From an uncultured Clostridia bacterium (GTDB lineage Bacteria; Bacillota; Clostridia; Oscillospirales; Acutalibacteraceae), in contig CAMAZY010000010.1 in assembly GCA_945863885.1 (NCBI GenBank), forward strand, positions 1 to 64,000: DNA of 64,000 bases. Reading direction: 5' to 3'. Below, one piece after another: positions 17,131 to 30,000 of this stretch. Position numbers and translations under genes: made by a program. Each line of letters begins with the position of its first letter. Within the stretch, counting starts at the first letter, position 1. A model generated the notes under the pieces. It had not been told where the DNA came from, ran no database searches, and was given only the letters and a program-made list of their open reading frames with translations.

Positions 17131-18771
17131 ATGAAAAAACTTGTTTCGGTCTTTTTGGCTCTTATCATGATGCTTACCGTTCTTACGCCGATTTGTTCGG
17201 TATCGGCGTCGGCGGCGTCGTATAAGCTTCTTGACATCCCTGTTGTCAGAATTTTCGGAGACGGCGAACCGCTTTACAACAAGGACGGAGAAAAGATCTT
17301 TCACTTTTCCGAAATGGCAAGCATCGGCGGTAGTATTGAGAAAAATGAGCTTTATTCTTCCGTAATTAACGTCGTCATGCCGTTTCTTATTGAGGGATTA
17401 GGCACCGGCAATTTCGACGGGTATTATGCCGCTCTCGAAAAGGAGATCGGCGAACTGTTCGCAGAAGCGAGACTTGACGAAAACGGCAACCCCGCCGAGG
17501 GTCAGGGCGTTTCACAGGAACGGATCCGGACGATGGAAAACTGGCTGAAGAATCCGAAGTGCCGTAATTTCATTTTCTGGTACGACTGGAGACTTGATCC
17601 GTATGAATCCGCCGCTTCTTTGAAGGAATATATTGAGCAGATCAAAGACGTCACCGGCAAAGACAAGGTTTCGGTTCAAAGCTTCTGTCTTGGTTCGAGC
17701 GTAATCGTCGCTTATATTGAAAAATACGGTACGGATGACCTTTACGGCGTCAGCTTTGACAGTTCGGTCGTAAACGGTGCGGAAATTATCAGCGAGCCGA
17801 TCAGCGGAAAATTCCGGATCAACGGCAATGCCATCAACCGTTTTCTTGCCGACTGCAACGCATCGGGTATCTTCAAGGTCGATGAATTTGTCAATCAGAC
17901 GCTTGATCTGCTTGTAAAAACAGGAGTCCTCGGTTCTGTTGTCGGCACTGTAAGAGAAAAGCTTTATTACAAGCTTTTTGAAGGCGTCACCTCTGCCCTT
18001 GCCCTTTCAACATTCTTCACCTGGCCTGTTTACTGGTCAGCCGTTACCGAGGACGATTACGACAATGCCATGAACTATGTTTTCGGCAAAGAGGGCAGTG
18101 AAAAGCGGGTTAAATACGCCGGACTGATTGAAAAGCTTGACAATTACGACGTCAAGGTTCGTCAGAAGCTTCCCGAAATATTGAAACAAGTTGAAGCCGA
18201 CGGTGTTAAAATTGTTGTTTTTGCAAAATACGGCTATCAGATTGTTCCGATCATTGAATCCGCTGACGCTGTCGCCGATCAGTATGTGTCCGCCAGCAGA
18301 GCTTCTTTCGGCGCCACGACCTCTACCGTTTACGGAACGCTCGACGAGGATTATATCGTAAACCGACTTGCCGAAGAGAAGGGCAAGTACATTTCTCCCG
18401 ACAAGCAGATTGACGCTTCCACCTGTCTTTTCCCCGAGTATACATGGTTTGCCAAGGGGGTCAGTCACTCCGACCGTCCGGACGCCGAATATGAAATTCT
18501 GTATGCTGCCATGAGGGCAGACAGACAGCTTACCGTTGACGACTTCAAGTATTCTCAGTTTATGGTTTACGACAACGATACGAAAGTCATGTCCGCCATG
18601 ACCGAGGAAAACTGCAATACCTACAATTGGGAAGCCAACAACGCTGAAGACAACCCGACGAACAAAGACGAATGGGTTTCCGCCCTTATCCGCTCACTCA
18701 TACGCTGGCTTACAGGACTTCTTAAGGTTCTTGTAAAAGTGATTTCCGCAAAAGCGGCAGTGACAGGTTAA
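17131..18771 (+). CDS. Secreted LCAT-like alpha/beta hydrolase with Cys nucleophile (paralog 1)
   Basis: A 546-residue exported protein. The signal peptide spans residues 1-29 (cleavage near ASA-AS). The body has the YDWR motif of lecithin:cholesterol acyltransferase-like hydrolases (FWYDWRLDP, about residue 150), then the nucleophile-elbow region VQSFCLGSS, where Cys186 stands in place of the usual Ser. A conserved SH in KGVSHSDRP near residue 450 is a candidate catalytic His. The last 25 residues form a basic amphipathic tail (SLIRWLTGLLKVLVKV). It shares family-specific blocks (DASTCLFP, ISPDK) with the next gene. Own promoter and terminator. Substrate unknown; probably an ester or lipid, if it is active. 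Confidence 0.8.
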   Translation: MKKLVSVFLALIMMLTVLTPICSVSASAASYKLLDIPVVRIFGDGEPLYNKDGEKIFHFSEMASIGGSIEKNELYSSVINVVMPFLIEGLGTGNFDGYYAALEKEIGELFAEARLDENGNPAEGQGVSQERIRTMENWLKNPKCRNFIFWYDWRLDPYESAASLKEYIEQIKDVTGKDKVSVQSFCLGSSVIVAYIEKYGTDDLYGVSFDSSVVNGAEIISEPISGKFRINGNAINRFLADCNASGIFKVDEFVNQTLDLLVKTGVLGSVVGTVREKLYYKLFEGVTSALALSTFFTWPVYWSAVTEDDYDNAMNYVFGKEGSEKRVKYAGLIEKLDNYDVKVRQKLPEILKQVEADGVKIVVFAKYGYQIVPIIESADAVADQYVSASRASFGATTSTVYGTLDEDYIVNRLAEEKGKYISPDKQIDASTCLFPEYTWFAKGVSHSDRPDAEYEILYAAMRADRQLTVDDFKYSQFMVYDNDTKVMSAMTEENCNTYNWEANNAEDNPTNKDEWVSALIRSLIRWLTGLLKVLVKVISAKAAVTG

Positions 18772-18790
18772 AATAACAAAGGAATTAAAC

Positions 18791-18822
18791 AAAAAAGCAG
18801 TCGAAATCCGGCTGCTTTTTTT
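18791..18822 (+). terminator. Terminator after LCAT-like paralog 1
   Basis: AAAAAGCAG pairs with CTGCTTTTT across an imperfect inner stem, ending in a run of seven T. Confidence 0.8.
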
Positions 18823-18872
18823 AATTCATTTTTTCTATATATTGATATCTCCTGTATTTTTGTCGATAACGC

Positions 18873-18901
18873 TTGAAAATATGACGATTCTATGTTATAG
18901 T
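18873..18901 (+). promoter_or_regulatory. Sigma-A promoter of the second LCAT-like gene
   Basis: -35 TTGAAA (18873-18878) and -10 TATAGT (18896-18901), 17-bp spacer; closely similar to the promoter of paralog 1. Confidence 0.72.
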
Positions 18902-18932
18902 TTAATAAACTGTTAAGAAGGAGACAGATGTC

Positions 18933-20501
18933 ATGAAAAAACTAATTTCGATTTTACTTGCGGTTGTGATGCTTTTGTCGTCTGTATCGGCCCTTGCTTT
19001 CGCTTCCGATACGGAAAAAGACATTCCGATCGTTTGCGTACACGGATACGGAGCGACTGTTTATTCTCCGGACGGTAGTGTTGTTTATCCGCCCGAAAGT
19101 AACTACGACATCGGGGAATATGTAAAAGAAGTTACGCCCGGTATTCTGAAAGAACTCGGTATAAGTCTGCTGACCGATAAATGGAACGGCTACTGCGACT
19201 CGCTTTATGATGCGATTGCAAAGCTTTATGAAGGCTTCCCGCTTGACGGTAACGGAGAGATTTCCAACGGTTCGTTTGTCAATGTCTCCATGAACGAAGC
19301 TGTTCTCAGCAATCCGAAGCAGTCGGATTATCATGTCTGCGATTTTACGTTCATGTATGATTGGCGCAAGAGCCCGCTCGATGTTGCAGATGAACTGAAC
19401 GCCTATATCAACACCTTACTTGAGAAAACCGGGCACAGTAAGATCGGACTTGTCGGCCGCTGTCTCGGCTCGGCTGTCGTTTCCGCATATATCGCAAAAT
19501 ACGGCACCGACAAGGTGGACTCTCTTGTTTATTATGTTCCGACCGCAAACGGCGGTGTTGAAACCGTAAACGCACTTTTCACCGGCGATGTTCAGCTTGA
19601 GCCGGCTTCTCTTGACCGCTTTGTCAATTATTATGTCAACAGAAAAGGACTCAGCGGTGATGAAATCATGGACGATTTTATTGTTGCTCTTTTCTCGCTC
19701 TTAACCTACTGTAAGGTTCTTCCCGCAGCAGAGGATGCAATTGAAACCATTTATGCAAAGGTTAAGGAAAACGTCGTTCCGAGACTTCTTCTCGCCTGCT
19801 ACGGTGGGCTCCCCTCTTTCTGGTCGATGTTAAGTTCCGAATACTATGAAGACGCAAAAGCGTTTGTTTTCAAGGGCAGAGAGAACGAATATGCCGGCTT
19901 CATCAAAAAGATTGATGAATACAACTATACCGTAAAAGAAAAGCTTCCTGACTTACTCAAAAAATTTGAAAACGAAGGCGGTCGGGTTGCCGTTATTGCC
20001 AAATACGGATTCAATGCTCCTCCGATATCGCAAACACCGAATATTCAAAGCGATGCAATGGTTGCAACAAAGAATCTTTCTTTCGGCGCAACCTGCAGCG
20101 ACATCAACAAGAAGCTTCCGGCAAGCTACATGGAAAGTGCCGCACTCGCAGGTACTGACCGATACATTTCGGCCGACAAAAAGGTTGACGCTTCCACCTG
20201 TCTTTTCCCTGATACCACATGGTTTATCAAAAACATTCCTCATGCTGAATTCCCCGCCGATACAAACAACTTAATCGGGACATTCATTCAAAGTAGAGAA
20301 AAGGTTACCGTCTGGAGCTATGAGAATTGGCCGCAGTACATGAAATACGATATGAAGACCGGTGCAATTTCAGCCGTTACGGAAGAAATAGACGAGGATT
20401 CCCGTTGGACAAACAATATCATTCAGGCATTTATCAAATTCCTGACATCGTTGTTCAGGGTTTTTGCAAAGCTCCTTTCTCAGCAGGTAGCGGCAAAATA
20501 A
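18933..20501 (+). CDS. Secreted LCAT-like alpha/beta hydrolase with Cys nucleophile (paralog 2)
   Basis: A 522-residue exported paralog of the preceding protein. Signal peptide at residues 1-24 (ends ALAFA-SD). IVCVHGYGA at about residue 33 is the oxyanion-hole strand (HG) of alpha/beta hydrolases; MYDWRKSP is the LCAT-type YDWR motif; LVGRCLGSA carries Cys177 at the nucleophile position in a G-x-C-x-G elbow. KNIPHAEFP holds the candidate catalytic His. The C-terminus is a basic aromatic tail (FIKFLTSLFRVFAKLL). Cys as nucleophile is known in dienelactone hydrolase (GYCLGG) but is not usual in LCAT-like enzymes. Tandem duplication with separate promoters suggests dosage or divergent specificity. 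Confidence 0.82.
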   Translation: MKKLISILLAVVMLLSSVSALAFASDTEKDIPIVCVHGYGATVYSPDGSVVYPPESNYDIGEYVKEVTPGILKELGISLLTDKWNGYCDSLYDAIAKLYEGFPLDGNGEISNGSFVNVSMNEAVLSNPKQSDYHVCDFTFMYDWRKSPLDVADELNAYINTLLEKTGHSKIGLVGRCLGSAVVSAYIAKYGTDKVDSLVYYVPTANGGVETVNALFTGDVQLEPASLDRFVNYYVNRKGLSGDEIMDDFIVALFSLLTYCKVLPAAEDAIETIYAKVKENVVPRLLLACYGGLPSFWSMLSSEYYEDAKAFVFKGRENEYAGFIKKIDEYNYTVKEKLPDLLKKFENEGGRVAVIAKYGFNAPPISQTPNIQSDAMVATKNLSFGATCSDINKKLPASYMESAALAGTDRYISADKKVDASTCLFPDTTWFIKNIPHAEFPADTNNLIGTFIQSREKVTVWSYENWPQYMKYDMKTGAISAVTEEIDEDSRWTNNIIQAFIKFLTSLFRVFAKLLSQQVAAK

Positions 20502-20606: not shown

Positions 20607-21746
20607 TTATTTCACAACCGGATCGCCCGAATATGGCTTAACCGCCGGGAACTGGGTTTCGTCAAAGCCCATGACTCTTGCGATCTGAACGCTGATCTGA
20701 CGGTTTTCAACAAGCTGGCCGTCAGTGAAGCCTGCGTCAGCTTCCGAAACGAAGAGAGGTACGTCTGCGGTGGAATGGCCGTCTTTTGTGTAATAATATT
20801 CATCCTTTTCGGCGTCATACTTGATGCCACCGGTTTCGTGGTCGGCGGTAACAACAACTAAGGTTTCTCCGTCCTCTTTTGCGTATTCAACGGCCGCCTT
20901 GACAGCGTCGTCAAACGCCATGACGCACTTGGTTGCGCCGTCAAAGTCGTTGTCATGAGAGAACTTGTCGATGCAGGCACCCTCAACCATGAGGAAGAAT
21001 CCGTTTTCGTTGTCATCAAGAAGATCGATTGCCTTTTCGGTCATTTCGGTGATAGACGGAGTATCATTGTCGCTCTTGCAGTTTTTCAGATCGTCAAAAT
21101 CAAACTGTGCAAACGAACGGCTGCCTTCTTCAAGTGCCTCAAGCTCGGTTGCGGTTGAAACATATTCAAAGCCGTGTTCGGTACATCTTTCTTCGGTGAC
21201 GGAATCGGTGTCGGCACCCCAGATCAGGTCAAGGTCGCCGTTCAGCTGATCTGTGCTGATTTCTTTTTCGAGCGTTCTTGAAATTGCATGAGCCGAGAAA
21301 GACGCCGGTGTGGCACCGCTCGTCTTGTCGGTCGTCACAACACCGGCCGACTTACCGTTCGCCTTGGCAAGCTCGGTAAGAGAAATAGGAACAGAGGTGT
21401 CGTCGATCGTAAACGGATGGAAAGCGAATCTTGCAACAGAGTTGATCCATACACGGATACCGCAGGCAAGAGCCGTTCCGCCCGCCGCCGAGTCGGTATA
21501 ATCGAAAATGAACGAACGGGTGTCCGAATTTCCGTGAACGGGCATTGTGTCAAGGAAAAGCGAGGTGTTATATCTCTGACGGGTAACGGCAAGCGTATTT
21601 TCGCCCATTCCGTCGCCGATCATAAGAATAACGTTCTTGTACTCCTTGTAGTCGTCGCTGACGTTGTTGCCCAGACCGAGAGCGCAGGTCAGAGCAAGAA
21701 GCAACGCCGTTGTGAAAGAAAGAATTCGTTTAAAGGTTGTTGGCAT
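20607..21746 (-). CDS. Secreted alkaline phosphatase
   Basis: A 379-residue exported phosphomonoesterase. Signal peptide at residues 1-25. MIGDGMG (Asp45) binds metal; the nucleophile is Ser86 in DYTDSAAGGTALACG; later metal ligands lie in CIDKFSHDND, TADHETGG and KDGHSTADVP. The full dizinc/Mg site is therefore present. It would release phosphate outside the membrane, in keeping with the Na/phosphate cotransporter at the window start. Shorter than the E. coli enzyme (about 450 after processing) because crown insertions are missing. A sigma-A promoter (21776-21804) lies directly upstream; no PhoB-type box was recognised. Confidence 0.93.
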   Translation of the reverse strand: MPTTFKRILSFTTALLLALTCALGLGNNVSDDYKEYKNVILMIGDGMGENTLAVTRQRYNTSLFLDTMPVHGNSDTRSFIFDYTDSAAGGTALACGIRVWINSVARFAFHPFTIDDTSVPISLTELAKANGKSAGVVTTDKTSGATPASFSAHAISRTLEKEISTDQLNGDLDLIWGADTDSVTEERCTEHGFEYVSTATELEALEEGSRSFAQFDFDDLKNCKSDNDTPSITEMTEKAIDLLDDNENGFFLMVEGACIDKFSHDNDFDGATKCVMAFDDAVKAAVEYAKEDGETLVVVTADHETGGIKYDAEKDEYYYTKDGHSTADVPLFVSEADAGFTDGQLVENRQISVQIARVMGFDETQFPAVKPYSGDPVVK

Positions 21747-23226: not shown

Positions 23227-23272
23227 ATATAAGACGAAGAAAAACATTAGATAAATATGTGAGGTGGAGAAA

Positions 23273-23902
23273 ATGAAGATTTCAATCAGCACACTGCGGC
23301 GTTTACCCGTTTATCTGAATTATCTGAAACAGCTTCCCGAAGAACAGGTCAATATTTCCGCAACCGCTATCGCAACCGCACTCCGGTACGGCGACGTACA
23401 GGTCAGAAAGGACTTAGGCGCTGTCAGCGGTGCCGGAAAGCCGAAGGTCGGCTATAACCGCATTGAGCTTATCGAAACACTCGAACGGTTTTTGGGCTAC
23501 CGTGAGGTCAAAAAAGCTGTGCTTGTCGGCGCAGGCAAGTTAGGAGAGGCTCTTATGGGCTACGGCGGCTTCCGTGATTACGGACTGGATATCGTCGCCG
23601 CCTTTGACAACCGGAATTTCGGTCAGGAGGTTTCGGGCAGGATGATTTACAACATCACCGAGCTTAAGGACTTTTGTAAAAAGGAAAACATCAAAATCGG
23701 CGTTATCACCGTACCGCATTTCGCCGCTCAGCAGGTTGCCGATCTGATGTACGAAAGCGACATAAAGGCCATCTGGAACTTTGCACCGATTCATCTGAAT
23801 CTGCCGTCGGACATTCTTGTACACGACGAAAACATGGCGGCGTCGCTTGCTCTTTTGACAAAACAGCTTGAGGACAAGGAACTTCTGGAAGCGGAAGATT
23901 GA
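23273..23902 (+). CDS. rex: Redox-sensing transcriptional repressor Rex
   Basis: A 209-residue repressor sensing the NADH/NAD+ ratio. The N-terminal winged helix carries the conserved LRRLPVYLNYL start and NISATAIATAL-YGDVQVRKDLG recognition region. The Rossmann domain follows with VGAGKLGEAL (about residue 83), and the swapped C-terminal helix is present. ATG at 23273 is chosen; a GTG at 23264 lies inside the GAGGTGGAG ribosome binding site. Rex normally represses fermentative dehydrogenases and hydrogenases under low NADH. It lies just upstream of the kinase/[FeFe] hydrogenase pair, a functional fit, although no perfect TTGTTAA-N4-TTAACAA box was found in the window. Confidence 0.96.
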   Translation: MKISISTLRRLPVYLNYLKQLPEEQVNISATAIATALRYGDVQVRKDLGAVSGAGKPKVGYNRIELIETLERFLGYREVKKAVLVGAGKLGEALMGYGGFRDYGLDIVAAFDNRNFGQEVSGRMIYNITELKDFCKKENIKIGVITVPHFAAQQVADLMYESDIKAIWNFAPIHLNLPSDILVHDENMAASLALLTKQLEDKELLEAED

Positions 23903-24060: not shown

Positions 24061-24813
24061 ATGAAGTTAGAAAATGTAATTGCCGAAAGAGACAACAAAA
24101 CGGTTTACCGTGACGGCGACCGTTCCATAAAAATATTTTCGCCGCAAAGCTCAAAGGCCGCCATTCTCAACGAGGCACTCAATCAGGCCATCGTTGAAGA
24201 AGCGGGCATGAACGTACCGGCCATTTTATCCTTTTATATCCGTGACGGCAAGCCGGTCACCGAATCGGAATATATCGACGGCGAAACCCTTGACCGTGTA
24301 ATAAAAAACAACCCCGATAAATTTGACGAATACTTCAATCTGTTTGTAGATTTACAAATCGAGTTGCAAAGCAAAAGCTCACGGTTTCTGACAAGACTTC
24401 GTGACAAGCTCAACCGTCAGATCAACGAAGCCGAGCTTTCCGCCACGGTGCGGTACAGCCTGCACGCAAGACTGAGCGCCATGCCGAAAAGCCAGCAGAT
24501 TTGTCACGGTGACTTCAACCCCTCAAATATTATTCTCGATAAAGACGGAAAGGCCTATATCCTTGACTGGTCAAAGGCGACACAGGGCAATGCCGCCGCA
24601 GACGCTGCCATGACCTGCATTCTTTTCTGCCTCGACGGAGAAATCGAAACCGCAAGAAAATATGTTGACCTGTACTGCAAAAAAACAGGAACGGAAAAAT
24701 CATTTATCAAGAAATGGATTCCGATTGTTGCCGCTTCCTATTCCGTTGAAGTCAGCGGCGAAAAGCACGACAAGCTGATTGCATGGGTAGAAAGCTTTGA
24801 TTTGTTGGACTGA
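24061..24813 (+). CDS. APH-family phosphotransferase, hydrogenase-linked
   Basis: A 250-residue kinase-like protein. SIKIF provides the ATP-binding Lys (about residue 24), and ICHGDFNPSNIILD plus AYILDWSKATQG give the catalytic Asp, Asn and metal-binding Asp of the APH fold. It resembles the small TIGR02172-type kinases of unknown substrate. A start at 24061 gives the right spacing from GGAGGT (24049-24054); an ATG at 24055 abuts that site. The hydrogenase gene starts 13 bp after its stop, so they share the promoter at 23984-24012. Why a small-molecule kinase should be coupled to hydrogenase is unclear. Confidence 0.8.
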   Translation: MKLENVIAERDNKTVYRDGDRSIKIFSPQSSKAAILNEALNQAIVEEAGMNVPAILSFYIRDGKPVTESEYIDGETLDRVIKNNPDKFDEYFNLFVDLQIELQSKSSRFLTRLRDKLNRQINEAELSATVRYSLHARLSAMPKSQQICHGDFNPSNIILDKDGKAYILDWSKATQGNAAADAAMTCILFCLDGEIETARKYVDLYCKKTGTEKSFIKKWIPIVAASYSVEVSGEKHDKLIAWVESFDLLD

Positions 24814-24826
24814 CAGGAGGTAAAGT

Positions 24827-26266
24827 ATGAATAAAATCAGAAAATTTGACACCAAGGTTCAGCACCTGAAATATAAAGTTTTAAGAGAAGTTGCCCGTCA
24901 CGCATGGGACGATACGCTGATTGAAAGAATGTTTGACATTCCGAAAACCATCATTCCCGGAAAAGAGCAGACCATGCGTTGCTGTGTTTACAAGGAAAGA
25001 GCCATTCTCACCGAAAGAGTCCGGATCGCCATCGGCGGAAACAGCGACAACCCGAACGTCATTCAGGTTATCGACATCGCCTGCGACGAATGTCCGTCGA
25101 GCGGCTACGAAACCGGCGACGCCTGCCGGGGCTGTCTTGCCCACCGCTGTATGGAGGTCTGCAAGATGAATGCGATCACTCTTGACAGCCAGCAGAAAGC
25201 CCATATCGACAAGTCAAAGTGCGTCAACTGCGGTCAGTGTGCCAAGGCGTGCCCGTATAACGCCATCATCAACCGCCGCCGTCCGTGCGAGCTTTCCTGC
25301 AAGGTCAAGGCCATCTCGATGGACGAAAAGACCTTTGCGGCAAAAATCGACAATGACAAGTGTATTGCCTGCGGTGCGTGCGTTTATCAATGCCCGTTCG
25401 GTGCCATTATGGACAAGTCGTTTATCATCGATGTCATTGATCTTATCAAAAAGAGCGAAAACAACACGAAGTACAACATGGTTGCCGTTGTTGCACCGGC
25501 GATTTCAAGCCAGTTCAAATTTACGACACTCGGCAAGGTCATCAAGGGCATCAAAATGCTCGGCTTCAACCGGATCGAGGAAGCGGCTCTCGGCGCCGAT
25601 ATGGTTGCGTTCAAGGAGTCGAAGGAGCTTACGGAAAAGGGCTTTTTGTTAAGCTCGTGCTGTCCGGCTTTTGTCTCCTATACGCAAAAGAATTTCCCGC
25701 AGCTTGCCGGGCACATCTCCGACAACCTTTCCCCCGCCGCAACGATTGCCAAGCACATCAAGCAGCAGGACAAGACCGCCAAGGTTGTCTTTATCGGACC
25801 GTGCACGGCAAAAAAAGCCGAAGCGAGAAAGCCGGAGGTCAGACCGTATATCGACTCGGTTATTACCTTCGAAGAGCTTCAGGCGCTGTTTGACAGCCGT
25901 GACATCGACATCACCGAGGTTGAGGAAGAACCGCTTGAGGGTGCGTCCTACTTCGGAAGAATCTTCGGCCGAAGCGGCGGACTGACCGATGCGGTACGGC
26001 AGGGCATCTACGAGCACGGTGCCGACTTTGAGTATAAGCCGATGACCTGCAACGGCATTGAGGAGTGCCGGACGGCGCTCATGAGAAAGTCGAAAAACGC
26101 ACTGCCCGCAAACTTCGTCGAGGGCATGGCGTGCGTCGAGGGCTGTGTCGGCGGTGCCGGCTGTCTGACCCATTCGGACAGAAATCGTGCCGACGTTGAC
26201 CGCTACGGCCGGGACGCTATGGAAAAAACGAAGTCGATTACTCAGGCGGTAACCGACGCAAAATAA
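24827..26266 (+). CDS. Monomeric [FeFe] hydrogenase (group B-like)
   Basis: A 479-residue protein. The N-terminal about 210 residues carry multiple Cys motifs, including two ferredoxin-like [4Fe-4S] sets (CVNCGQCAKACP and CIACGACVYQCP) and an extra Cys-rich segment before them (CDECPSSG, CRGCLAHRC). The H-cluster domain follows with SSCCPAF (L1), IGPCTAKK (L2) and EGMACVEGCVGGAGC (L3). The L1 and L3 variants match group B rather than group A1/A3 enzymes. It probably oxidises ferredoxin to make hydrogen or senses hydrogen; the maturation genes hydEFG are not in the window. Cytosolic. Confidence 0.94.
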   Translation: MNKIRKFDTKVQHLKYKVLREVARHAWDDTLIERMFDIPKTIIPGKEQTMRCCVYKERAILTERVRIAIGGNSDNPNVIQVIDIACDECPSSGYETGDACRGCLAHRCMEVCKMNAITLDSQQKAHIDKSKCVNCGQCAKACPYNAIINRRRPCELSCKVKAISMDEKTFAAKIDNDKCIACGACVYQCPFGAIMDKSFIIDVIDLIKKSENNTKYNMVAVVAPAISSQFKFTTLGKVIKGIKMLGFNRIEEAALGADMVAFKESKELTEKGFLLSSCCPAFVSYTQKNFPQLAGHISDNLSPAATIAKHIKQQDKTAKVVFIGPCTAKKAEARKPEVRPYIDSVITFEELQALFDSRDIDITEVEEEPLEGASYFGRIFGRSGGLTDAVRQGIYEHGADFEYKPMTCNGIEECRTALMRKSKNALPANFVEGMACVEGCVGGAGCLTHSDRNRADVDRYGRDAMEKTKSITQAVTDAK

Positions 26267-26283
26267 GCTGAACAGCAGACAAG

Positions 26284-26316
26284 CTGCCCGACTCGGATTG
26301 GAGCCGGGCAGTTTTT
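26284..26316 (+). terminator. Terminator of the hydrogenase operon
   Basis: CTGCCCG...CGGGCAG stem with an inner CTC/GAG extension, followed by TTTTTATAA. Confidence 0.9.
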
Positions 26317-26331
26317 ATAACACAACGAAGA

Positions 26332-27120
26332 CTATTCCTGATAGATTGACCGAAGATATTCATATGACGCAAACAGTTCCCGGTCCGATTGGAAGCTGTC
26401 GCTGTAAACTTCGATCATATATTTCCCATGGTAGCCGATTTTCTCCAACGAGTCAAAAAGCTTACGGAAATCGAATCGTCCGCCTTCTTTCGGCGGTGTA
26501 CAGTCCCGGTAAGCATCAAAGTCGCTGACATGAACATGAACGATGCTTTCCCCGAGAGCATCAACGAATTGCTGATAATCGACGCCCGTGCGCCGTGCCT
26601 GCTTGACGTCGAGCACCATATTGAAGTTTTCGCCGAGCATTTTTTTCAGATACAACATAAATTCAGGACTCTGACCGACATAATGAACAACGTTTTCATG
26701 CGCGCCCTTTACACCGAACTGCCTTGCCGCTTCGTCAAAACGGTAAAATCGTTCTGCGTATTCCTCGTCAGAGATTGTCATTTTGCCTTTTGCCCCGTGT
26801 AAAATGACATACTTAGCCCCGAGCCTTGCCGCCGCTTCAAAGCAAGGCTTATAAATCGTGTCAAGGCTGTCGTAAAACCGACGCTCATAGCTTGAAAACA
26901 GAAAATATCCTTCGGCAAAGGACATAAACGGGTGAAACGATACGATATCCATGCCGTAGTGGGTCTTGATATCGCAAATTTCCCGAAACAGACCGCCCGT
27001 AAGCTCCGACGGCGAATTAAAGAAAACCTCTACGGTTCTGATGCCCATTTCACCGAGCCGGATCAGCGATTTTTCGGTTTCAAGCGGATAATAACAGGAA
27101 GAAGATACTCCGATTCTCAT
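26332..27120 (-). CDS. Sugar phosphate isomerase/epimerase-like TIM barrel
   Basis: A 262-residue protein of the xylose-isomerase-like/AP endonuclease 2 superfamily (PF01261). Conserved elements include VEVFFNSP after strand 2, DIVSFHP, YVILHGAKG, AHENVVH, the metal ligands in NMVLDVKQARR and VHVHVSDF, and MIEVYSDS. The set suggests a divalent-metal site of Glu, Asp, His and Glu. The substrate is unknown. ATG at 27120 (MRIGVSSS) has AAAGGG upstream, while the longer frame has no support. It lies 76 bp after the secreted phosphoesterase gene on the same strand and may be cotranscribed. Confidence 0.82.
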   Translation of the reverse strand: MRIGVSSSCYYPLETEKSLIRLGEMGIRTVEVFFNSPSELTGGLFREICDIKTHYGMDIVSFHPFMSFAEGYFLFSSYERRFYDSLDTIYKPCFEAAARLGAKYVILHGAKGKMTISDEEYAERFYRFDEAARQFGVKGAHENVVHYVGQSPEFMLYLKKMLGENFNMVLDVKQARRTGVDYQQFVDALGESIVHVHVSDFDAYRDCTPPKEGGRFDFRKLFDSLEKIGYHGKYMIEVYSDSFQSDRELFASYEYLRSIYQE

Positions 27121-27196
27121 TATTTTGCCCTTTCCGTAATCAGAATAAAGCGGTAACGGCACAGCCCTGGCCATGCCGTTATGGCGTATTGGATGC

Positions 27197-28357
27197 TTAA
27201 TACCATTTTGTGATTCCGAGGAATCGGTAAAGTGTGCGAAGAAGATCGCCGACGATTGCCGGTGTCAGAAGATCGCTGAGGCAAAGGCCGGGATCGCCGA
27301 TCAGATCTTCATAAAATACCGAGCGTGTTGTATAGGCGGAGACGTCGTTTTCGTTCAGTTCAAACACTCTGACCGATCTCTTTCCGCCGTTGCCGTAGGA
27401 ACGGAAGCCCGTTCCGCCGTTATAGCCGAGAATAATGCCCTCGTCAGTTTTACCGACAAAGTTGTTGACATGGTCGTGCGCAAAGAAAGCGCCGATGATG
27501 TCGCCCTTTTCGAGCCATGCTTCATACTGACCGGTAACATGGGTAAGCGGCTCGGAGCACGGTGCTTCGCCTAAATAATTGTCTTCGGAAAGAAGCTTCT
27601 CACTGTTGAGCCGGTACCACTTGTAGTTATCAAGACTGAAAACGGAGGTGTTGCTCTCTTTTGCGTTGGTTTCGTCGATGAACTGATAGATTTCCTTAAC
27701 GGGAACGTGCTGGAAAAGGAGAGACGGAAGTACCTTTCCGCCGTTGAGAGCCTTCAGCTCATCGCTTTTCGCTTTGTACCATTCGACCTGATTCGGATAC
27801 ACACCGGTGTAGCCGCTGACGGCGCCGCTCTTGTTGTTGGTGTCCATCATGTAGACGTTCAGTGCGTAAGCCGTACCGTCGGAATTCAGAATCGGCAGGC
27901 TGTATGTACCGGGGTCGCAGCCATCGGAATTGACGCAGTATTCGAATTCTTCAAAGGTTTTCATCATATCGGCAATCGAAACCTTGTCCTCGAGGTCATG
28001 GTCATGGTTGCCGAACGTAACGGCAAACGGCACCTTTGCGTCGTTGAAGATTGTTCCGAGCGCACGGATAGCGTTTTTGATTCTTGTTTCGGTTGCGCCG
28101 ATAAACATATCCGAAAGGATATCGCCGGCGACAACAACAAGGTCAGGCTGTTCGGTTTCGAGAGCCTTTTTCAAAAACGAAACGGTCTTTTTGTTCATTT
28201 TGTCGATGTCCTGGGTGTCGTTGACCTGCATAATTTTAAAGGTTCCGTCAGAATTGAACTGAAGCGGGGCCGCCGGATCTTCGCCCGCCGCAAACGCAAC
28301 CGTGCAAAGCGCAAGAACCATTACGAGGCTAAGTAAAATGCTTAAAACTTTTTTCAT
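27197..28357 (-). CDS. Secreted calcineurin-like metallophosphoesterase
   Basis: A 386-residue exported phosphoesterase. Signal peptide at residues 1-24 (ends AFA-AG). Metal motifs in order: QVNDTQD, VVAGDILSD, FGNHDHD, FQHVP and FFAHDHVNN; all five blocks of the family are present. The final 25 residues (DLLRTLYRFLGITKWY) form a basic aromatic tail like those of the LCAT-like proteins and the double phosphoesterase. ATG at 28357 follows AAAGGAAG. The promoter is at 28412-28440, with a 7-bp-arm palindrome in the leader. Confidence 0.9.
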   Translation of the reverse strand: MKKVLSILLSLVMVLALCTVAFAAGEDPAAPLQFNSDGTFKIMQVNDTQDIDKMNKKTVSFLKKALETEQPDLVVVAGDILSDMFIGATETRIKNAIRALGTIFNDAKVPFAVTFGNHDHDLEDKVSIADMMKTFEEFEYCVNSDGCDPGTYSLPILNSDGTAYALNVYMMDTNNKSGAVSGYTGVYPNQVEWYKAKSDELKALNGGKVLPSLLFQHVPVKEIYQFIDETNAKESNTSVFSLDNYKWYRLNSEKLLSEDNYLGEAPCSEPLTHVTGQYEAWLEKGDIIGAFFAHDHVNNFVGKTDEGIILGYNGGTGFRSYGNGGKRSVRVFELNENDVSAYTTRSVFYEDLIGDPGLCLSDLLTPAIVGDLLRTLYRFLGITKWY

Positions 28358-28376
28358 TGCTTTTCTTCCTTTCTTT

Positions 28377-28392
28377 GCAGACAGATGTCTGC
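28377..28392. promoter_or_regulatory. Palindrome in the leader of the 27197-28357 gene
   Basis: GCAGACA and TGTCTGC form perfect 7-bp arms separated by two bases, between the promoter and the ribosome binding site; possible operator. Confidence 0.5.
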
Positions 28393-28411
28393 TAAACGGT
28401 CTGACAGAAAA

Positions 28412-28440
28412 AGTATAACACACAAAAATGTCGTTTACAA
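28412..28440 (-). promoter_or_regulatory. Sigma-A promoter of the secreted phosphoesterase gene
   Basis: Minus strand -35 TTGTAA (28435-28440) and -10 TATACT (28412-28417), 17-bp spacer. Confidence 0.7.
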
Positions 28441-28477
28441 TCAATTTCTTTTATACCGTCTGCCAAAATAGGCAGCC

Positions 28478-29227
28478 TCATTTTGTTGAAAATGCCCACT
28501 CCGTCAAAAACTCATATACCGTTTTGTTGAATTCGTCAGGATTGTTCCGGGCTATCATATGGTCGCCCTCAATAAAGCAAAGGCGGCTGTTTTGAATCGA
28601 ACCGGCAATCTTTTCGGTGTGTTTTTGTTTGATGAGGTCTTTTGTTCCCGCAAGAACAAGAGTCGGAACACTGATTATTTTCAGCTCATCGGGCGTAATA
28701 TCGGGCTGACCGATCATCAGGGAAAGAATTTCTCTTTTCAGCCGGGCTTTGGGGCTTCTTTTTTCCGGCAGAGCCAACAGTGCATGCGAGACGACAACTC
28801 CCGCCTGAAAAATGCCGAGAACGCCTTTGGGATCGAGGTTTGCGCCGTTAATAATCAGCTTGTTGATTCTGTCCTGGTGCCGGAGAGCAAAAAGCAAGGC
28901 AATATTTCCGCCGTCGCTGAAGCCTAAGAGGTTCGCCTTTTCAATCGAAAGCGCATTCATGAATGCCAAAAGGTCGTCGGCGATTCTCTGTAAGGTCAGC
29001 TCACCCGCACCTCGTTCGCTTTTTCCGTGCCCCCGGCTGTCAACGGCAATCACCCGGAAGAAACGGGAGAAATATTCAATCTGATAGTCGAAGTATTCCG
29101 AATTTTCGCCGTTTCCGTGAAGAAAAAGGAGCGGTTCTCCCTCCCCTTTTTCAATATAGGCAAGCGTCACATCGCCAAGACGGCAAAACCGATAATCGTA
29201 CTTCATTTTCGCTTCTCTGTCTTTCAT
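28478..29227 (-). CDS. Cytosolic alpha/beta hydrolase
   Basis: A 249-residue hydrolase. LLFLHGNGENSEYF holds the oxyanion HGNG; DSRGHGKS and the nucleophile elbow GFSDGG (Ser about residue 104) follow; the acid is probably in LAGTKDLI and the His in EGDHMIA near the C-terminus, completing the triad. No signal peptide, so cytosolic. The ATG overlaps the stop codon of the SDR gene (TAATG), which implies translational coupling; a second ATG seven codons in is possible. Substrate unknown, perhaps an ester or lactone produced with the dehydrogenase. Confidence 0.87.
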   Translation of the reverse strand: MKDREAKMKYDYRFCRLGDVTLAYIEKGEGEPLLFLHGNGENSEYFDYQIEYFSRFFRVIAVDSRGHGKSERGAGELTLQRIADDLLAFMNALSIEKANLLGFSDGGNIALLFALRHQDRINKLIINGANLDPKGVLGIFQAGVVVSHALLALPEKRSPKARLKREILSLMIGQPDITPDELKIISVPTLVLAGTKDLIKQKHTEKIAGSIQNSRLCFIEGDHMIARNNPDEFNKTVYEFLTEWAFSTK

Positions 29228-30000
29228 TATGAACCGCTTGAAAAGCCGCCGTCAACAATAATTGACGCACCGGTCACATACGCCGACAGATCGGACGAAA
29301 GGAATAAAACCGAGCCGACGATATCCTCGGGCTTCGCCAGCCGTTTCATCGGAATCCGCATATGCATATACGCCATCCAGCGTTCGTTTTGGAGGTTATC
29401 GGCAATCAGCGGCGTTTCCACAAAACCCGGACAGACACAGTTGACCCGGATTCCGAACCGTGCCCACTCGCCGGCAAGAGACTTCGTCATCTGCAGAACG
29501 GCGCCCTTGCTTGCGCTGTAGGCGACGGCGTTCGGCACACCGATAAAGGCGCTGAGTGAACACATATTGATAATGTTACCGCTCTTTTGCGGTACAAAAA
29601 ATTCGGAAGCAATCTTCTGCGAAAGATAGAAATGGCTGTTGAGGTTCAGATCAATGACTCTCTCCCAGCCCTCTTTTGTTTCGTTGAGCGAGCGGACGTT
29701 GGCTCCCGTTCCGGCGTTATTGACAAGAATATCAAGCCCGCCGAAAGCGTCTTTCACGGCGGCGACAATTTTGTCGGTGTCCTCGGACTTTGTGATGTCG
29801 CCCGTTACGGCGATGATCTTCCTTTCGGGGAAGCTGTCCGACAGTGCGTTTTTCGCTTTTTCGTTTGCTTCGCCGTTAAAATCGGCAAGGCAGACATCAC
29901 AGCCGTTTTCGAGAAAGCCTTTAGCCGTTTCAAGGCCGATGCCGCCGGCGGCGCCCGTAATCAGAACTCTTTTTCCGCTTAAATCAAGTGTGTACTTCAT
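29227..30000 (-). CDS. Short-chain dehydrogenase/reductase
   Basis: A 257-residue classical SDR. TGAAGGIG (about residues 15-22) is the NAD(P)-binding glycine motif, NNAG is at about residue 88, the catalytic Ser lies in CSLSAF and Tyr/Lys in YSASKGA; the C-terminus ends with the usual ASIIVDGGF. The acidic residue in LADFN after strand 2 favours NAD over NADP. The start is ATG at 30000 with GGAGGA eight bases upstream; the ATG at 30021 precedes that site. Coupled to the alpha/beta hydrolase by a stop-start overlap. Substrate not deducible. Confidence 0.9.
   Translation of the reverse strand: MKYTLDLSGKRVLITGAAGGIGLETAKGFLENGCDVCLADFNGEANEKAKNALSDSFPERKIIAVTGDITKSEDTDKIVAAVKDAFGGLDILVNNAGTGANVRSLNETKEGWERVIDLNLNSHFYLSQKIASEFFVPQKSGNIINMCSLSAFIGVPNAVAYSASKGAVLQMTKSLAGEWARFGIRVNCVCPGFVETPLIADNLQNERWMAYMHMRIPMKRLAKPEDIVGSVLFLSSDLSAYVTGASIIVDGGFSSGS

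Follow-up and report, generated by a model that had tools for sequence, protein, structure and literature searches.

The window analysed here comprises the first 64,000 nucleotides of contig CAMAZY010000010.1 from an uncultured Clostridia bacterium of the Acutalibacteraceae (GenBank assembly GCA_945863885.1). It contains two neighbouring genes, here called P1 and P2, for probably secreted alpha/beta hydrolases that resemble LCAT and LPLA2 and carry a cysteine at the position of the nucleophile. Both open reading frames are intact. A YDWR motif is present in each, and the cysteines in the nucleophile elbows are encoded by TGT, as the original prediction had read them.

17131..18771, + strand: P1 gene, LCAT-like alpha/beta hydrolase, probably secreted, 546 amino acids; elbow QSFCLGS (Cys186); AlphaFold2 model with pLDDT 93.3 and pTM 0.90; top fold matches LPLA2/LCAT
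17131..17217, + strand: signal-peptide-like segment of P1, residues 1-29, with a charged start and a hydrophobic core, as read from the sequence alone
18933..20501, + strand: P2 gene, LCAT-like alpha/beta hydrolase, probably secreted, 522 amino acids; elbow VGRCLGS (Cys177); PF02450 at 21.5 bits, PF00561 at 31.6 bits; AlphaFold2 model with pLDDT 91.8 and pTM 0.89
18933..19007, + strand: signal-peptide-like segment of P2, residues 1-25, read in the same way

The assignment to an LCAT-like family was borne out by the fold and, for P2 only, marginally by a profile. Among the 50 fold matches listed for each model, LPLA2 and LCAT are the best for both proteins, with 13-15% identity in the structural alignments. 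The Pfam profile LCAT (PF02450) recognizes P2 marginally (21.5 bits, cut-off 21) and does not match P1; in alignment A3 of the family, 24 of the 84 members match it at E<=0.01, a count taken without checking the curated cut-off for each member. The dienelactone hydrolase profile DLH (PF01738) stays below its cut-off in P2 (18.9 against 21) and does not match P1, and this enzyme is missing from the 50 fold matches listed per model, which excludes nothing. The nucleophile of LCAT is a serine (Ser181), and P1 and P2 depart from the LCAT/LPLA2 family precisely in this residue. Hence, we term them LCAT-like rather than LCAT, because Cys186 and Cys177 replace the serine nucleophile.

On conservation and model topology, the two cysteines can be placed in a putative Cys-His-Asp triad. 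In both AlphaFold2 models the cysteine lies at a classical elbow with strand-turn-helix topology, and the histidine that had been expected near residue 450 is found in the loop that follows the final strand of the core.

17686..17688, + strand: TGT codon of P1 Cys186, nucleophile position, in the turn between strand 180-185 and helix 188-199
18277..18279, + strand: P1 Asp383, probable catalytic acid, invariant in alignment A5, at the end of strand 380-383, in the same column as P2 Asp374
18466..18468, + strand: P1 His446, probable catalytic base, invariant in alignment A5, in the loop after strand 438-442
19461..19463, + strand: TGT codon of P2 Cys177, nucleophile position, in the turn between strand 171-176 and helix 179-190
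20052..20054, + strand: P2 Asp374, probable catalytic acid, Asp in 147/147 Cys homologues and in 57/58 others (the remaining one is a gap); placed also by an LCAT-family alignment
20241..20243, + strand: P2 His437, probable catalytic base, His in 146/147 Cys homologues and in 56/58 others (two gaps), in the loop after strand 429-433

Asp374 is preferred as catalytic acid because of its invariance and the strand order. Our first choice had been Asp419 of the IDAST motif, which was rejected since this position holds Asn in five and Tyr in three of the 147 Cys proteins; moreover, when the LCAT-family protein L032 is aligned, its GDGTV block coincides with the block of Asp374, although the His-like region of L032 is out of register at the C-terminal end of this alignment. 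A second frequent cysteine, in the motif DASTC, had been considered as disulfide partner of the elbow cysteine; it is missing from several members with a Cys elbow and thus cannot be an obligate partner. One homologue, L176 (1273-3114, - strand), reads AEGFGG with Gly at the nucleophile position while the Asp and His positions are retained, and is possibly a dead enzyme.

The original prediction would have been weakened if homologues mixed Ser, Ala and Cys freely at the elbow. This is not what we found. Among 205 distinct homologues of at least 420 amino acids (210 before shorter ones were dropped; copies with a long identical stretch in common were counted once), the position holds Cys in 147, Ser in 57, Gly in one and Ala in none, which agrees with an earlier set of 184 out of 189 (Cys 134, Ser 49, Gly 1). 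The initial search had given 152 unique homologues, five of them fragments without the elbow residue. These sets lean to Cys, as most members were found by Cys queries. The recurrence of the cysteine is beyond chance and a sequencing error can be dismissed, as had been argued before. In the 134 Cys proteins of the 184 set the codon is TGC in 92 and TGT in 42 cases, so that the DNA drifts while the residue persists. The Ser codon is AGY in 41 of 49 proteins, a single base away from TGY.

Trees calculated without the elbow columns (some of them on 106 rows, with 58 of the 134 Cys proteins after thinning and with L176 and L150 omitted) require at most two changes between Cys and Ser, also with the 205 set. 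They unite all Cys proteins in one clade with a support of 99-100, together with two Ser proteins that read GRSIG (L022, L026) and are nested among the Cys proteins in the FastTree and the quick IQ-TREE trees; a third, partial GRSIG protein occurs in L021. A clear reversion from Cys to Ser in these proteins was not upheld: in the approximately unbiased (AU) test on the 106 rows a clade of Cys proteins alone is not rejected (p 0.722), and the constrained tree scored 14.4 log units above the one that the unconstrained search had reached. With such a tree a single change is enough. The GRSIG proteins may therefore represent either a reversion or a sister group that already held the arginine. Two further positions mark the Cys clade.

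19458..19460, + strand: P2 Arg176, directly preceding the nucleophile; this position is Arg in 128/147 Cys homologues and Phe in P1
20001..20003, + strand: P2 Lys357, second marker of the Cys clade, Lys in 140/147 Cys homologues

After the nucleophile itself, these columns separate the two types best (in the 184 set, Arg at 176 in 87% of the Cys proteins and scattered residues in the Ser proteins, Lys at 357 in 95% of the Cys proteins). Of the 58 non-Cys homologues, two carry the arginine, namely the GRS proteins, and nine the lysine. At residue 39, next to the putative oxyanion hole, 53 of these 58 have Met, Phe, Ile, Leu or Tyr, and the Cys proteins are variable.

The description of P1 and P2 as tandem paralogues holds with regard to their adjacency, but not as a recent duplication; with 32-34% identity they are old paralogues and no fresh tandem copy. 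Genome G020 contains the orthologous pair, also side by side, and relative to these single orthologues the nonsynonymous and synonymous divergence (dN/dS) is 0.032/0.365 for P1 and 0.054/0.567 for P2; both genes look to be under purifying selection.

They belong to a large family. A search of the 2.6 Mb genome with P2 detected 17 places, which correspond to 16 genes (two places are pieces of one gene), 11 with a Cys and five with a Ser elbow, and the same search found 10-25 family places of both types together in each of 23 other genomes of the genus. The scan of named genome contigs yielded 256 relatives, and 78 loci were retained, with titles assigned to Clostridia, Clostridiales, Clostridiaceae, Oscillospiraceae, Ruminococcaceae or Ruminococcus sp. 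The sources given in these titles are rumen, omasum, cecum, colon, rectum or faeces, and the hosts are goat, sheep, cattle, deer, horse or 'Lapin'; the remaining titles name no source. In wider samples, in which the five best candidates per genome were scored and all counts are lower bounds, family matches occur in at least 54 of 250 genomes of the taxonomic family, at least six of 295 of the order and at least one of 291 of the class, that one being the window's own genome. An earlier view that the Cys type is confined to one genus was wrong, since it was found in at least eight genera among the 250 genomes.

Several homologues bear additional domains. Type I dockerin domains stand at the end of three homologues outside the genus (L137:1333-2985, - strand; L138:1516-3198, + strand; L176:1273-3114, - strand), that is in three of the 35 homologues scanned, two with Ser, one with Gly (L176) and none of the Cys type. 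Some relatives of P1 and P2 may hence be parts of cellulosomes. The Cys-type homologue L036 (184-2913, - strand) ends in three fibronectin type III stretches, and one of the 35 scanned homologues matches a C-type lectin domain.

Neighbour clustering revealed one recurrent partner of the Cys genes, present in 14 of the 78 loci. It is an acyl-acid amidosynthetase of the GH3 (Gretchen Hagen 3) type in which the three GH3 domains are complete in number, distinct from glycoside hydrolase family 3. The second-largest neighbour cluster consisted of family genes that had escaped masking. Other recurring neighbours such as ATP-binding cassette (ABC) ATPases, major facilitator superfamily (MFS) transporters and leucine-rich repeat (LRR) proteins gave no usable pattern. 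Of the 34 genomes of the genus 33 contain GH3, as against one of 14 control genomes. Among the 250 genomes of the taxonomic family it was found in 31, namely in all 18 with a Cys-type hydrolase, in eight of the 38 with Ser homologues only and in five of the 194 with neither. The difference between Cys and Ser-only genomes is large (Fisher p 7e-9), although this test, like the other one given below, compares related genomes and the p-values overstate their independence. The 18 genomes were first assigned by the A3 score (best match >=501 bits), and the Cys elbow was then read in each; the Ser elbows read among the same loci scored <=440.8. The association is also seen within genera: g332 and g395 each include one genome with neither gene, and two and one genomes, respectively, with both. 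In genus g366 one genome holds GH3, and no Cys type was found among its five best candidates.

The association extends to gene order. Outside the genus, half of the Cys-bearing genomes (7/14) have a same-strand pair of GH3 and a Cys gene with at most 50 bp between them, GH3 coming first in some pairs and second in others, and seven of the 25 GH3 genes of the 14 genomes are so placed; this spacing is an estimate with gene ends taken from domain ends. On contig C15 of G682 (24233-29330), two GH3 genes flank a Cys-type gene on the same strand, one adjacent and the other at an estimated distance of about 900 bp. Considering all loci with enough flank, GH3 occurs within 500 bp of 18 of 120 Cys genes and of none of 50 others. 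If the five loci fetched for GH3 are omitted, the counts are 13 of 115 and none of 50 (Fisher p 0.010). Adjacency requires 13 changes on the tree and was therefore gained or lost many times. Our first impression that GH3 commonly stands beside Cys genes came from Cys-centred loci and was abandoned after counting within the genus, where 70 GH3 genes were listed and 63 remained after exclusion of six partial ones and of the one in the window's genome. Seven of the 63 have a family gene at a distance of up to 500 bp, in each case one of the Cys type and in six cases on the same strand.

From the computed residues, fold, clade and gene association, we consider it likely that P1 and P2 represent a lineage of exported Cys-His-Asp enzymes of the LCAT/LPLA2 fold that underwent a switch from serine to cysteine, expanded, and acts through a thioester acyl-enzyme, with some members sharing acyl groups with GH3. 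Best supported within this proposal is an LCAT-like fold with a Cys-His-Asp triad, in an enzyme that is apparently exported, kept by selection and expanded. Regarding export, catalysis, order of events and substrate, which we infer, the following sequence is proposed. An ancestral Ser enzyme would have changed to Cys, most simply once, accompanied by the gain of Arg before the nucleophile and of Lys at the end of the strand preceding the acid loop, and the Cys type would then have been duplicated up to the 11 Cys genes of the window's genome. In the putative triads Cys177-His437-Asp374 (P2) and Cys186-His446-Asp383 (P1), the histidine would remove the thiol proton and the thiolate would attack the acyl ester, or amide, of a lipid-like extracellular substrate; the acyl-enzyme, for which a thioester is favoured, could be discharged to water or to an acceptor. 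At least some members may act on the same acyl groups as GH3, either transferring acyl groups onto N-acyl amino acids or releasing the acids for them, because GH3 occurs in the sampled Cys-type genomes and sometimes next door. By analogy, the GH3 link favours transfer, i.e. building or remodelling of amino-lipids, for at least some members, and the number of paralogues together with the dockerins favours hydrolysis for others.

Several observations weigh against parts of this proposal. The Arg marker is absent from P1, which has Phe instead, and one of the 34 genomes of the genus gave no GH3 match. Adjacency is infrequent within the genus, and the GH3 gene of the window's genome lies on contig C9, 357 bp from a third Cys paralogue that is 44% identical to P2, not beside P1 and P2. 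By expectation GH3 is cytosolic while the hydrolases are apparently exported, so that a shared substrate must cross the membrane. Moreover, eleven divergent Cys paralogues would be expected at least as much from digestion of a range of dietary esters as from a single step of biosynthesis, and the dockerins hint at plant-matter substrates for relatives. A purely digestive role, in which secreted thiol esterases or lipases cleave plant or microbial acyl esters of the diet within the gut of herbivores and the GH3 link reflects acid disposal or shared lineage, is a serious contender that we rate slightly below an even chance. It is backed by the many family places per genome, by the herbivore gut or forestomach origin wherever a source is stated and by the dockerins, although none of these is on a Cys type. 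Digestion alone leaves unexplained why the occurrence of GH3 follows the Cys type and not the Ser type, as well as the same-strand pairs of GH3 and Cys genes with little or no gap.

A dedicated amino-lipid route, with a cytosolic GH3 forming an N-acyl amino acid and an outer-face Cys enzyme transferring a second acyl group or removing it, is backed by the co-occurrence and by the operon-like adjacency in both orders. LCAT, which with LPLA2 is the best fold match, is an acyltransferase. A precedent exists in the planctomycete Singulisphaera acidiphila, in which the GH3-like OlsH makes N-acyl ornithine and its operon mate OlsI, an alpha/beta-hydrolase O-acyltransferase, adds the second acyl chain (PMC12493201). 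However, most family genes lie away from GH3 (the 18 adjacent among 120 Cys genes include the five in GH3-fetched loci) and the Cys enzyme is apparently exported, which makes this route a tentative and on balance unlikely general explanation. Somewhat more doubtful still is the most specific version, an extracellular thiol-LCAT lineage that changed from Ser to Cys together with Arg and Lys, is tied to GH3 and, via a thioester and acyl transfer, makes or remodels surface N-acyl amino-acid lipids of uncultured Oscillospiraceae-like bacteria in the gut. Finally, the cysteine might not be a nucleophile at all; the proteins would then be catalytically dead and the residue would have a structural, redox or metal-binding role. 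Hydrolases are reported generally to lose their activity when Ser is swapped to Cys, a point weakened by a table in the same article in which the single swap in CALB cost only approximately two-fold on one substrate (PMC6642262). The restriction of the site to Cys or Ser in 204 of 205 homologues, the conservation of Asp and His and the absence of the DASTC cysteine from several Cys-elbow members speak against this possibility, which appears improbable.

Comparison with known systems delimits what is new. P1 and P2 share with LCAT/LPLA2 (PF02450) the best fold matches, the order nucleophile, acid, His, the acid block aligned with the GDGTV block and, barely, the Pfam match of P2; they differ by Cys for Ser, the low identity, the lacking Pfam match of P1, their bacterial origin and their high paralogy. 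Dienelactone hydrolase relatives such as P91 (PF01738) have a Cys-His-Asp triad in an alpha/beta hydrolase (PMC9853848), whereas P1 and P2 are longer, apparently exported and LCAT-like in fold. According to a survey of triads, both Ser and Cys occur in thioesterases, N-acyltransferases and dienelactone hydrolases of the alpha/beta-hydrolase fold and Cys in a few further groups, and with a Cys nucleophile the third residue can be missing (PMC9825947); Cys in this fold is therefore already known. The artificial CALB cysteine-lipases combine the change from Ser to Cys in a lipase fold with helper substitutions, one of them at the residue before the nucleophile (PMC6642262), but they are a laboratory product, in contrast to the apparently natural, widely inherited switch with subsequent expansion considered here. 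The OlsH-OlsI system shares the operon of a GH3-like amidosynthetase gene with an alpha/beta-hydrolase acyltransferase gene (PMC12493201), an arrangement resembled in seven of the 14 Cys-bearing genomes outside the genus and by the C9 paralogue, not by P1 and P2; it belongs to another phylum, the hydrolases here look exported, are of the Cys type and occur in many copies, and the likeness concerns gene arrangement. In open-licence papers we did not find a Cys lineage of LCAT-like exported enzymes. What appears new is an LCAT-like family in which members have switched their nucleophile and a partner gene goes with them.

Both proteins end in a further shared feature, a helix defined by DSSP of the models with amphipathy judged by eye.

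18664..18765, + strand: C-terminal hydrophobic/amphipathic helix of P1, residues 512-545
20418..20495, + strand: C-terminal hydrophobic/amphipathic helix of P2, residues 496-521

These helices could serve as membrane anchor or sorting tail; by eye, similar tails occur in many of the 14 Cys-type tails inspected. The genes around P1 and P2 look unrelated (ABC transporter, AraC-type regulator, aminoglycoside phosphotransferase (APH)/fructosamine-kinase-like protein, pyridoxal-phosphate (PLP) enzyme, MFS transporter). An alkaline phosphatase gene with a signal-like start (20607-21746, - strand) converges on P2, with the 3' ends approximately 100 bp apart. Further on, an iron-only hydrogenase-like protein with 4Fe-4S domains (24827-26266, + strand) is encoded downstream of a gene (23264-23902) for what we take to be a Rex-like repressor.

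The carriers of the Cys-type family are uncultured gut bacteria, many of them from plant-eating mammals, and the gene partner GH3 makes the function of the family testable. Since this natural lineage comprises Cys members as well as Ser relatives, and two of the Ser proteins retain the arginine of the Cys type, the role of helper substitutions is directly testable as well. If the GH3 link is functional, it would suggest that gut Clostridia have an N-acyl amino acid pathway.

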